Shown in pieces: positions 3,254 through 15,086 of a stretch of 23,750 nt of DNA. The translations under genes and the position numbers were made by a program. Numbering within the stretch: position 1 is the first letter of the stretch; every line of letters begins with the position of its first letter. The notes beneath the pieces were generated by a model, which did not search any database, was not told the origin of the DNA, and worked only from the letters and a program-made list of their open reading frames with translations. The stretch comes from a virus, in the IMG/VR virus record IMGVR_UViG_3300020203_000236, positions 1 through 23,750 of that record; one strand, 5' to 3'.

Positions 3254-3903
3254 GTCAGTTCGCCACCGCGCAGGAGCTGCGTGACTTCCTCGACATCGCG
3301 TCCACCACCGGGCGGGCGACCACGGCCAACCTGAACCTGCTGCTGACGGCCGCGTCCGACTTCATGGAGCGGGCTACCGGGCGGATCATCACGTCCAGCG
3401 CGTCCAACACCGTTCGCACGTTCAGCACGGACGGCAGGGATGCCATCACCATCCCGGACCTGCGCACGGTGTCAAACATCACGCAACAGGGCTCGGCGCT
3501 GTCGGCGGATAGCACGTACTACCTGCTCCCATCCCGCCAGCAACCGGAGGCGGGCTCGACCGTCTACACGGGCGTCCAGCTTCGGGCCTTCGGGACATAC
3601 GACTACCGATCCAACCCGGAATGGTTCGACCGCAACCTCGACTCCCCGTACTGGTCGATGCGCCGAAACGGCCTGCCCAACGATCTCATCATCACGGGCC
3701 TGTGGGGCTGGACATCGGTCCCGTCACAGTGGAAGTTCACGTCCCTGATCCTGGCGGGGTTTTACTACAAACGGCCCGACTCGCTACTGGCGAACACGGC
3801 CGTCACGCCGGACGGCAACTTACTCGACTTCGGGGTTCTGCCGCTGGAAGTGACCTCCCATATCGACCAGTGGCGGCTTACTGACCACGTGGCGACCCTC
3901 TGA
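3250..3903 (+). CDS. Head-tail connector protein (gp6-like)
   Basis: The 217-aa protein begins MSQFATAQELRDFLDIASTT, followed by helices with an FMERATGRII segment, the pattern of small head-tail connector proteins (HK97 gp6 / SPP1 gp15 type) that form a ring below the portal. The C-terminal part (LILAGFYYKRPD) is also typical. The GTG at 3250 overlaps the stop of the GT4 gene. The upstream in-frame GTG at 3187 would add residues lying inside that gene and is rejected. It is followed by neck and tail-terminator genes with one-base overlaps, the standard order portal - capsid - connector - neck - terminator - tube. Confidence 0.75.
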   Translation: MSQFATAQELRDFLDIASTTGRATTANLNLLLTAASDFMERATGRIITSSASNTVRTFSTDGRDAITIPDLRTVSNITQQGSALSADSTYYLLPSRQQPEAGSTVYTGVQLRAFGTYDYRSNPEWFDRNLDSPYWSMRRNGLPNDLIITGLWGWTSVPSQWKFTSLILAGFYYKRPDSLLANTAVTPDGNLLDFGVLPLEVTSHIDQWRLTDHVATL

Positions 3904-4391
3904 TGGCCGTCGTCAAGGGTCTACGCGCTCAGATTATCGGCATCAAGCAACTGCGCGCCCGCCTGGATGCCGTGAAGACCAACAAGGGTGCTCTGCGGTT
4001 AGTCGCGCAGCAGGGCGTCAAGGAAGCCAAGTTCTTAGTCCCTCGCAAGACTGCCAACCTCGCCCGAACGATCCGTGTCGGGACCGTTACCGACACGACC
4101 GCGACTGTCGTGGCCGGCGGAACCACCAAAGTCGGTTACGCCATCTATGTCGAGCGCGGTACACGTCCGCACGTCATCCGATCCAAGCCGGGCGGGCCCC
4201 CGCTGTCGTGGGGCGGGAAGCGAACGCTCGCCGGCGGTTTGCGCAAGGGATCAAAGCCGACCAACTTTGCCCGGAGCGTGCGCCACCCCGGAACACGGGC
4301 GCAACCGTATCTGGTGCCCGGTGTCCGCAGGGCGCTCCAGAAGGCTGGCCTCAAAAAGGCCATCGTCAAGGCGTGGGATGAGGCCGCCTGA
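3903..4391 (+). CDS. Neck / tail-completion protein (HK97 gp10-like)
   Basis: The protein is 162 aa, basic, and of the HK97 gp10 family type. It starts with a short helix-rich part (IIGIKQLRARLDAV), then the family hallmark VPRKTANLARTIRV, and a beta segment with YAIYVERGTRPHVI (Y-x-x-x-V-E-x-G-T), the most conserved part of the family. These proteins act at the head-tail interface during joining. The ATG shares one base with the upstream stop (TGATG), and the same arrangement joins it to the next gene. Confidence 0.85.
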   Translation: MAVVKGLRAQIIGIKQLRARLDAVKTNKGALRLVAQQGVKEAKFLVPRKTANLARTIRVGTVTDTTATVVAGGTTKVGYAIYVERGTRPHVIRSKPGGPPLSWGGKRTLAGGLRKGSKPTNFARSVRHPGTRAQPYLVPGVRRALQKAGLKKAIVKAWDEAA

Positions 4392-13195: not shown

Positions 13196-13232
13196 ACGCC
13201 CCTGTCTCCGTAGTGGAGGCGGGGGCGTTTTT
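13196..13232 (+). terminator. Strong intrinsic terminator ending the late operon
   Basis: The stem is 14 base pairs: ACGCCCC (13196-13202) pairs with GGGGCGT (13222-13228), and the inner seven bases pair with two G-U wobbles. It has a five-base loop and a T tract at 13228-13232. It sits between the last late gene and the stop of the leftward gene at 13239. There is no T run on the other strand, so it looks one-directional. Confidence 0.92.
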
Positions 13233-13238
13233 GGCGTT

Positions 13239-13496
13239 TCAGGCGAACGGCTCGCCGCAGTGGTTGCAGAGGCGTTCGCGGTCCTGAGCGACGATCTTGC
13301 CGCAGTTGACGCACACGCGTCCCTGACGAGCCACCACGCCGGGTTTCGCCATGGCAGCGCCGATCAGCCCTATCGGCCCCAGAAGGAACCCCACGACACC
13401 GGCGGACCCCGCATCGTCGCGGCCTTTCTGGGCAGTGATGAGGTACGCCCCGATACCACAGATGAGCCAGACGGCCAAGACTGCGTAGACCTCCAT
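13239..13496 (-). CDS. Small membrane protein with C-terminal zinc ribbon (85 aa)
   Basis: Two hydrophobic segments at residues 4-21 (YAVLAVWLICGIGAYLI) and about 31-50 (SAGVVGFLLGPIGLIGAAMA) are joined by a charged loop (AQKGRDD). A zinc ribbon follows with C62/C65 (CVNC) and C77/C80 (CNHC). The start at 13496 is backed by GGAGGT eight bases upstream. It lies downstream of, and on the same strand as, the repressor gene, so it may be expressed in lysogens. The type (two membrane spans plus zinc ribbon) is common in high-GC bacteria. A superinfection-exclusion or lysogenic-conversion role is possible but only inferred. Confidence 0.8.
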   Translation of the reverse strand: MEVYAVLAVWLICGIGAYLITAQKGRDDAGSAGVVGFLLGPIGLIGAAMAKPGVVARQGRVCVNCGKIVAQDRERLCNHCGEPFA

Positions 13497-13577: not shown

Positions 13578-13784
13578 ATGACCGACTCCCAGCCGGCCGT
13601 GGCTCTGGAAACACTACAGGGAGCCATCGTGGCCGATATCAACGTCCCGATCCCGTTGTCTCGCGAGGAACAGGCGGGGCTGCTCGTGCTGCGAGGTCTT
13701 GTTCGACTAGGCGTGCTACGACCGCCTCCACCCCGTGGGTCCAAGCCTCCCGCTCGCGACGCATCTCGGCCAGCTCAGCCGTAA
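13578..13784 (+). CDS. Doubtful small ORF overlapping the repressor 3' end (68 aa)
   Basis: The first ~36 residues have protein-like composition and high third-position GC (MTDSQPAVALETLQGAIVAD, then PLSREEQAGLLVLRGL). The second half falls inside the repressor gene on the other strand (from 13639), loses the codon bias and becomes Pro/Arg-rich. Only GAGAG at 13570-13574 could serve as a ribosome binding site, at a short distance. It is either a small gene convergent with the repressor that ends within it, or a chance frame. Confidence 0.3.
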   Translation: MTDSQPAVALETLQGAIVADINVPIPLSREEQAGLLVLRGLVRLGVLRPPPPRGSKPPARDASRPAQP

Positions 13785-14049
13785 GGGCGCGGATCGCACC
13801 GGCGAGGTCGTCGGGGGGCGCGGAGTCGGCCTGCTCCACGAAGGGGCCAAAGAAGCGCTCTAACAGCGGTAGGTGGCGCTTGCTCGGAGCCTTGGTGCCC
13901 GCCTCGTATTCGGCATAGGTGCTCTTCGCGATCTCGATGCCGGCGGTTAGCAGGGCCTGGCGCGCCTTCTCAGCCGTAGCGAGGTTACGGTCTAGGCGAG
14001 AGGCGACGAGCCAACGGCCGTAGGGACCGCGCTCGCTGGGGGACTTCAT
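13639..14049 (-). CDS. XRE-type (CI-like) repressor, 136 aa
   Basis: The N-terminal helix-turn-helix region is readable: ATAEKARQALLTAGIEIAKS, then TYAEYEAGTKAPSKRHLPLL, which matches the XRE pattern (recognition helix TYAEYEAGTKAP, then the helix-5 segment). The C-terminal half is a helical, coiled-coil-like part (AIRALTAELAEMRREREAW), possibly for dimer formation; no LexA-like peptidase motif is seen. The ATG at 14049 is chosen over the one at 14097 because the longer form would cover the operator and promoter at 14059-14087. It is divergent from a Cro-like gene, with three palindromic operators between. It probably keeps early genes silent in lysogens and controls its own promoter. Confidence 0.8.
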   Translation of the reverse strand: MKSPSERGPYGRWLVASRLDRNLATAEKARQALLTAGIEIAKSTYAEYEAGTKAPSKRHLPLLERFFGPFVEQADSAPPDDLAGAIRALTAELAEMRREREAWTHGVEAVVARLVEQDLAARAAPPVPRETTGSGR

Positions 14050-14058
14050 GGCTGCGCG

Positions 14059-14087
14059 ACAGTGACCTTTGTCGCGACTTTTGTCAA
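14059..14087 (-). promoter_or_regulatory. Candidate leftward (repressor) promoter
   Basis: On the minus strand, TTGACA (14087-14082) is a perfect -35. A 17-base spacer leads to CACTGT (14064-14059) as a weak -10. The predicted start point is about 14052, only two or three bases before the repressor ATG at 14049, so the mRNA would be almost leaderless. The palindrome at 14071-14078 fills the spacer. Confidence 0.55.
14071..14078. promoter_or_regulatory. Operator 1, GTCGCGAC palindrome
   Basis: This is a perfect eight-base palindrome flanked by T and A runs (TTTGTCGCGACTTT). It lies between -35 and -10 of the leftward promoter candidate. It is identical in core to the copies at 14114 and 14144, so it is the likely binding site of the repressor or Cro-like protein. 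Confidence 0.75.
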
Positions 14088-14113
14088 TACCCTGCACGAC
14101 ACCACAAGATAAT

Positions 14114-14121
14114 GTCGCGAC
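14114..14121. promoter_or_regulatory. Operator 2, GTCGCGAC palindrome
   Basis: This is the middle copy (AATGTCGCGACTTC), 43 bases after operator 1 and 30 bases before operator 3. It directly follows a GATAAT element (14108-14113) that could be a -10 on either strand, though no good -35 fits. It may bridge the two outer sites for cooperative binding. Confidence 0.7.
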
Positions 14122-14134
14122 TTCGCGAGACCTC

Positions 14135-14163
14135 TTGACTTTTGTCGCGACATCGGCGAAACT
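14135..14163 (+). promoter_or_regulatory. Candidate rightward (early) promoter
   Basis: TTGACT at 14135-14140, a 17-base spacer, and GAAACT at 14158-14163 form a promoter candidate with a good -35 and a weak -10. The predicted start point falls at about 14170, the A of the Cro-like gene's ATG, giving a leaderless mRNA. Operator 3 lies in the spacer, three bases after the -35, the same spacing as on the leftward side. Confidence 0.55.
14144..14151. promoter_or_regulatory. Operator 3, GTCGCGAC palindrome
   Basis: This is the third exact copy (TTTGTCGCGACATC), placed in the spacer of the rightward promoter candidate. Binding here would block early transcription. A weaker match (CTCGCGACTTTTGG, near 14330) lies inside the Cro-like gene and may be a chance relative. 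Confidence 0.75.
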
Positions 14164-14169
14164 CCGGAC

Positions 14170-14373
14170 ATGCCAACCACCGGACTGGACCTTCGCCTAG
14201 AGCGGGTCGCCGCAAGAGTGAAACTGATCGCCCTGGCCGAAGCCATGAAGCGCGATCGACGAACGGTTGCACGATACGAGGGCCTCGCCGTCGTTGATCC
14301 GGGGGTGGTCAACGAGTACCGCGAGTCGCTCGCGACTTTTGGCGATATCGAAACAACGGCAGACGTCGCGTGA
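14170..14373 (+). CDS. Cro-like small DNA-binding protein (67 aa)
   Basis: This short basic protein has a helix-turn-helix-like core: LERVAARVKLIALAEAMKRD then RRTVARYEGL. Its place, divergent from the XRE repressor and first in the rightward early operon, is that of Cro. No Shine-Dalgarno precedes the ATG, and the predicted transcription start coincides with it, which suggests leaderless translation. Its stop overlaps the GTG of the HNH gene. It could instead be an excisionase-like or other small regulator. Confidence 0.7.
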   Translation: MPTTGLDLRLERVAARVKLIALAEAMKRDRRTVARYEGLAVVDPGVVNEYRESLATFGDIETTADVA

Positions 14374-15086
14374 CCAAGATCCCGGCTGGCGATCGACTGC
14401 TACTGGTCGAACGCGTCCGCGGAGGTGAGACATTTGAGTCAGTCGCACGCCACTACGGATGTTCCCGCCAGCGCGTCCAGCAACTCTGGAAGCGGTACGG
14501 GTACGGCGAACGAGTCAGCCACTACCCGGTTGCGTCCTTGGAGCTAGTGCTCAAGTGCCGCTGCGGCGAGCACTACGTGGCCGGTACGTACCCAGTCCAC
14601 GTCAAGACGAGCAGCCATACCGATGGGATGCGCGTTCGCTGGGGTCGTGAGTTCTGGGCGCGCGTTCAGCCCGACTCCGGCGGTTGCTGGATCTGGATGG
14701 GCGCTCGGACTCCCGCGGGCTACGGGAGCGTCGGGACGGGTAAGCGAAGTGGCGTGTCGATCGTCTACGCCCACCGCTTTGCGTATGAGCTGGTCAAGGG
14801 TCAGATCCCTGACGGATTGGTCATCGATCACCTGTGCCGGGTCCCGCCCTGCGTCAACCCGGAGCACCTGGAGGCGGTGACGCACCGCGAGAACGTCCGA
14901 CGCGGTAAGAACGGCGTACTGCGCCACCTGCACGCGCCACGAGCATCGAGAGCCAACCCGGATGGGTGCCTTCGTGGACATCCCTACACGACCACCGCGA
15001 GCGGCCGGCGCTATTGCCGAACTTGCGGCGAGGCGTCGCGTCGACGAATGGTCGCCCGCCGAGCCTCGGAAGAGGCCGTCGCCTGA
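14370..15086 (+). CDS. HNH endonuclease with N-terminal helix-turn-helix
   Basis: Residues 8-45 form a resolvase-type helix-turn-helix (GGETFESVARHYGCSRQRVQ), followed by a Cys pair (C63, C65). The HNH_3-type nuclease core lies at residues 134-180: AHRFAYELVKG, then IDHLCRVPPCVNPEHLEAVT, with D153-H154, the zinc-binding cysteines C156 and C161, N163, H166 and N175. A last metal site (C200-x3-H204, C216, C219) ends the protein. It is likely a metal-dependent DNA nicking or cutting enzyme; such genes are often free-standing homing endonucleases or packaging helpers. The GTG at 14370 overlaps the Cro-like stop. Confidence 0.9.
   Translation: MTKIPAGDRLLLVERVRGGETFESVARHYGCSRQRVQQLWKRYGYGERVSHYPVASLELVLKCRCGEHYVAGTYPVHVKTSSHTDGMRVRWGREFWARVQPDSGGCWIWMGARTPAGYGSVGTGKRSGVSIVYAHRFAYELVKGQIPDGLVIDHLCRVPPCVNPEHLEAVTHRENVRRGKNGVLRHLHAPRASRANPDGCLRGHPYTTTASGRRYCRTCGEASRRRMVARRASEEAVA

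Follow-up and report, generated by a model that had tools for sequence, protein, structure and literature searches.

A probable phage immunity region in which the proposed -35 elements of two divergent promoters are built into putative palindromic operators

Three copies of an 8-bp palindrome lie within 120 bp between two divergently oriented genes of the virus record IMGVR_UViG_3300020203_000236, raising the question of whether they form the operators of a lysis-lysogeny switch. The window analyzed here is the whole record (23,750 bp), which also carries tail genes, YqaJ exonuclease, RecT, and other replication and recombination genes. The leftward gene (13639..14049, - strand, ATG at 14049) encodes a repressor-like protein of 136 aa with a weak HTH_3 match over residues 37-68 (Pfam E=0.0012, below cut-off). 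The rightward gene (14170..14373, + strand, ATG at 14170) encodes a Cro-like protein of 67 aa with a weak XRE-type HTH, and its open reading frame has no alternative start codon upstream. The end of the Cro-like gene is overlapped by a gene encoding an HTH and HNH endonuclease protein (14370..15086, + strand; Pfam HNH_3, 1.8e-16, and HTH_28, 3e-6). On the other side of the intergenic region, a small membrane protein with a zinc ribbon (13239-13496, - strand), weakly like phage 'moron' membrane proteins, is encoded between the tail genes and the repressor gene, and a strong terminator-like hairpin of 11 pairs with a T-run (13200-13224, + strand) was found directly past the tail-region genes. 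On the opposite strand from the repressor gene, a small open reading frame (13578-13784, + strand) overlaps that gene's 3' end and contains a conserved stretch, IPLSREE..., that also occurs in a related contig, L008 (4458-4625, + strand); its codon-position counts do not decide between a real gene and a chance frame.

A sequence-only reading of the intergenic region had described three exact palindromes, and we found GTCGCGAC at 14071..14078, 14114..14121, and 14144..14151. The suggested search for further copies covered the whole 23,750-bp record and returned only these three. TTGAC adjoins the outer two sites, and the right one falls inside the -35/-10 spacer of the proposed rightward promoter. 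The leftward arm, TTGACAAAAGTCGCGAC (14087 to 14071, - strand), and the rightward arm, TTGACTTTTGTCGCGAC (14135-14151, + strand), are present as described. The mirror symmetry seen between them proved imperfect, as the AAAA/TTTT is unmirrored and the 18-nt arms are 78% complementary.

How much does the clustering itself say? The number of exact GTCGCGAC copies in the record is about as expected (3 observed vs 2.4 expected). At least three copies of some 8-mer palindrome occurred within 120 bp in 19/300 (order-2) and 8/300 (order-4) simulated windows, i.e., 3-6%. The triplet by itself is therefore weakly significant and proves little. The motif TTGAC-N4-GTC is expected about 0.37 times per strand in the whole record and was observed once per strand inside 120 bp; its presence on each strand within this distance is much less expected than the palindrome triplet. 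These simulations and the unremarkable total of GTCGCGAC are what speaks for a functionless cluster of the 8-bp palindrome that arose by chance in GC-rich DNA. We consider such an origin highly improbable, because the cluster sits at the position of divergent promoters, its outer sites are exact in L008 amid diverged flanks, and analogous sites are found in a second relative, L004. The main support for the putative switch is thus the comparison with relatives, not the clustering.

The family as found comprises only three members, of which two are closely similar; the Cro-like gene is carried by two other viral contigs, L008 and L004. The L008 contig (42,700 bp) has a 127-bp terminal repeat and therefore represents a circular genome of 42.6 kb. 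It keeps the same gene pair, with a repressor 53% and a Cro-like protein 61% identical to those of the window, and its repressor open reading frame starts at the matching ATG. In the alignment of the intergenic regions, the left site block is kept at 13/13 positions, including an exact left palindrome, and the rightward -35 with the right site at 17/17, while 26/47 positions match in the stretch between the two -35s. The middle palindrome is not kept in L008 (4/8 bases). L004 (40,842 bp) is a distant relative, its Cro-like protein being 41% identical. Its intergenic region contains three TGACARYTGTCA palindromes, where 0 are expected in the genome, and the outer two overlap TTGAC on each strand, giving TTGAC-N4-GTC on both strands. 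The outer palindromes are separated, centre to centre, by 73 bp in the window and in L004 and by 76 bp in L008. Two divergent genes with HTH matches, weak and below cut-off, share an operator/promoter region in the window and in L008, and repeated putative operators over both promoters are kept in the relatives, the outer ones exactly in L008 and in analogous form in L004.

Several further features of these regions were observed. The Cro-like gene opens with 20 bases (14170-14189, ATGCCAACCACCGGACTGGA) that are identical in L004, despite the 41% protein identity. Downstream of its repressor gene, L008 encodes a GT87-like membrane glycosyltransferase (3420-4310, - strand; E=1.1e-4, below cut-off), and the short membrane open reading frame that stands at the repressor's place in L004 (3577-3888, - strand) resembles the C-terminal part of this protein. 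In the window, the left palindrome and the upstream CGCGACA can form a hairpin (14055-14085, + strand) followed by T-rich sequence. This hairpin was not taken as a terminator, because its partner arm is not conserved in L008.

We then examined the proposed promoters. The rightward promoter, preceding the Cro-like gene, has a candidate -35 (TTGACT, 14135..14140, + strand) and a candidate -10 (GAAACT, 14158..14163, + strand) that are separated by a 17-nt spacer. The -35 is conserved as TTGACT in L008 and TTGACA in L004. Written out, the three Cro-like promoters are TTGACT-17-GAAACT in the window, TTGACT-17-CAATGT in L008, and TTGACA-18-TACAGT in L004, and each ends 6 nt before the ATG; a -10-like nAnnnT hexamer thus precedes the Cro-like start at exactly this distance in 3/3 phages. 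The leftward promoter, preceding the repressor gene, has a candidate -35 (TTGACA, 14082..14087, - strand) and a weak candidate -10 (CACTGT, 14059..14064, - strand), again with a 17-nt spacer and here 9 nt before the ATG at 14049. L008 has TAGGCT at the same 9-nt distance from its repressor ATG, and GGTACA at the place aligned with the -35, which is not conserved. As the sequence-only reading had noted, the -10 boxes are weak on both sides: a standard scan yielded no sigma-70 promoter above threshold. The suggestion that an activator or a host-specific sigma factor may matter here found neither support nor counter-evidence.

With 17-nt spacers, the predicted transcription starts do fall at the ATGs or 2-3 nt before them. 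Neither gene has a Shine-Dalgarno, also as claimed: the pairing energies are -2.7 and -2.1, whereas many other genes of the record reach -5.6 to -11.7. Across the phages, weak pairing (-2.1 to -3.3) is seen at the starts of both regulators, and no Shine-Dalgarno is present at these starts in any of the three. Leaderless genes in high-GC bacteria carry the signature TAnnnT some 12 bp ahead of the start codon (PMC3160421). The Cro-like -10 hexamer agrees with this signature in its position, its A, and its last T, being nAnnnT rather than TAnnnT in two of the three phages. A -10 at this distance and no Shine-Dalgarno are seen at the Cro-like start in all three phages, and this pattern is weaker at the repressor start. 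The fixed 6-nt position of the hexamer in three phages and the lack of a Shine-Dalgarno make it most likely, and well supported, that the rightward mRNA is leaderless and would start at the A of the AUG. The leftward mRNA, predicted to start at its AUG or 2-3 nt before, is less well supported, because L008, the nearest relative, has no -35 at the aligned place. The proposal of leaderless transcripts thus holds better for the rightward than for the leftward message. Ordinary leaders could instead arise if transcription began at more distant upstream promoters, for instance within the neighboring gene, with the ATGs used by leadered initiation that is independent of a Shine-Dalgarno. The weak -10 boxes on both sides fit this, as does the precedent of phage PY54, where the 5' end of cro contains a strong promoter for cI (PMC4488713). 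We think it unlikely, as a -10-like hexamer lies exactly 6 nt from the Cro-like ATG in three phages.

What is the operator itself? GTCGCGAC had been taken as the operator, and it is indeed kept in the window and in L008. As a description of the complete operator it fares less well, since L004 and mycobacteriophage BPs, whose operator is the 12-bp palindrome CGACATATGTCG (CGAC-ATAT-GTCG) between the -35 and -10 of PR (PMC4557955), point to 12-bp half sites of the GAC-N4-GTC form. The operator may therefore consist of 12-bp [TC]GAC-N4-GTC[GA] half sites that overlap the -35, with GTCGCGAC appearing where two of them abut. On the left, two such half sites, TGACCTTTGTCG and CGACTTTTGTCA, abut at 14063..14086 with GTCGCGAC as their junction, and can be compared with TGACARYTGTCA of L004. 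On the right, the half site TGACTTTTGTCG (14136-14147) is followed by a degenerate CGACATCGGCGA, together spanning 14136..14159. All three half sites have the [TC]GAC-N4-GTC[GA] form, not the exact BPs sequence. Common to all three phages is TTGAC-N4-GTC at the rightward promoter; GTCGCGAC occurs in the window and L008 and not in L004. Against the half sites, the left site of L008 and the middle site of the window keep GTCGCGAC without the outer TGAC.

The competing description is that GTCGCGAC with its A/T flanks is the operator and that the adjoining TTGAC is just the -35. GTCGCGAC is exact at three places in the window and two in L008, all 5/5 copies have a T before and a T two bases after, and the left site of L008 has lost its outer TGAC and kept GTCGCGAC. 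L004 counts against it, having the GAC-N4-GTC form at both promoters and yet no GTCGCGAC. The half sites of an 8-bp operator would also lie close together for a classical XRE dimer. Overall, we give the GTCGCGAC operator somewhat less than an even chance and regard the two descriptions as about as likely as each other. The pattern TTGACTNNNGTCGCGAC was found at 80 viral loci, and only in the L008 contig was a second GTCGCGAC nearby. The pattern ATGCCNACNACNGGNCTNGANCT returned two loci (L005 and L006), which were set aside as unrelated chance matches. We do not claim dispersed operators elsewhere in the genomes, because the extra GTCGCGAC and TGACN4GTCA copies examined probably lie, judging from open reading frame positions, inside genes or at their beginnings, and GTCGCGAC counts are as expected.

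From this arrangement we infer the binding and the regulatory logic as follows. The divergent promoters would drive the XRE-type repressor gene leftward and the Cro-like gene rightward, with the -35 hexamers forming part of the operators. Binding of either protein at the palindromes, which are rich in GTC/GAC, would mask the -35 and spacer at one or both promoters and so block RNA polymerase. The repressor and the Cro-like protein most likely compete for the sites, and whether the repressor or the early lytic operon is expressed would depend on the occupancy of the left relative to the right site.

Alternatively, the Cro-like protein rather than the repressor could be the main reader of the palindromes, mainly regulating its own gene. 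L004 suggests this: it retains both the Cro-like gene and a set of three operators, a search of its contig found no relative of the window's repressor, and a gene for a short membrane protein occupies the repressor's place. Moreover, L004 departs from the window and L008 in both operator sequence and predicted recognition helix. However, parts of L004 may be missing from its record, a repressor of unrelated sequence may be encoded elsewhere, and the putative recognition helix of the repressor is fully kept between the window and L008. We favor competition between the two proteins and see autoregulation by the Cro-like protein as the less probable option. A broader and rather speculative proposal, which we consider improbable, is that these phages form a family of switches in which each -35, left and right, doubles as an arm of a palindromic operator, operators are swapped wholesale (from the GTCGCGAC to the TGACARYTGTCA type) with promoter geometry and leaderless start fixed, and the Cro-like protein suffices to control the region once the repressor gene is lost.

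HTH_31 matches are weak, below Pfam cut-offs, in all three Cro-like homologues. Phage records contained no match to the repressor (tblastn) or the Cro-like protein, plasmids contained none to the L008 repressor, and a scan of a genome collection with both regulator alignments yielded no confirmed member. A sequence search of solved structures returned only insignificant matches, the best for the repressor being the CI protein 3zhi (E=0.96), and AlphaFold models of both regulators were too poor for use. No cleavage domain was recognized in the short repressor. Rfam and tRNA scans returned nothing.

Taken together, the control region is likely to be the immunity (lysis-lysogeny) region of a temperate phage, with divergent repressor and Cro-like genes and -35s built into the operators. 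Several observations count against this: the HTH matches are below Pfam cut-offs, the -10s are weak and no consensus promoter is present, L008 conserves neither the left -35 nor the middle site, no recognizable repressor gene lies beside the L004 operators, and no integrase family match was found anywhere in the 23.75-kb window. L008 encodes a 515-aa serine recombinase/integrase (PF00239, E=1.1e-18) about 15 kb from its repressor gene, and this protein together with both regulators makes it very probably temperate. The phage behind the window, itself lacking an integrase and having a relative with one, is probably temperate as well. Of the compact switch first proposed, with one operator design for both promoters, the divergent repressor/Cro-like arrangement is backed by two relatives; three equivalent GTCGCGAC operators are less well supported, as only the outer two are conserved.

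These phages add a small family of immunity regions and allow a natural comparison, with changes in both the operator sequence and the regulator but none in promoter geometry. This comparison could help to assign immunity groups and to read operator specificity.

Among the closest known layouts is that of gp33/gp34 of BPs (PMC4557955), which the window resembles, by layout, in its divergent repressor and Cro-like genes and its 136-aa repressor. The putative operators are alike in general form, a 12-bp palindrome paired with a degenerate half site, which is CGAC-N4-GTCG between the -35 and -10 of PR in BPs and [TC]GAC-N4-GTC[GA] in the window. In BPs, 5-8 bp separate the 12-bp palindrome from its degenerate half site (PMC4557955), whereas the half sites of the window abut. 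The BPs repressor gene contains attP and is expressed together with the integrase; the serine integrase of L008 is far off, and integration-dependent immunity of the BPs type is not supported, because no integrase adjoins the repressor. The region also resembles lambda OR, with three putative operators between divergent genes and a predicted leaderless repressor message, the lambda cI mRNA being leaderless (PMC8630535); lambda repressor and Cro compete, as is proposed here. It differs from lambda OR in its short repressor without a recognized cleavage domain and in operator sequence and spacing. The Yersinia telomere phage PY54 has leaderless mRNAs for both cI and cro, determined by RACE (PMC4488713), and is similar in its divergent repressor and Cro genes and short intergenic region, a likeness of layout that leaves the proteins out; unlike the window, it has a single operator for Cro, at a different site. 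Since PY54 already provides a divergent switch whose cI and cro mRNAs are leaderless, and lambda a leaderless cI, the switch in this small phage family, which has no match in the phage collection searched, is of a known kind and an ordinary phage design.
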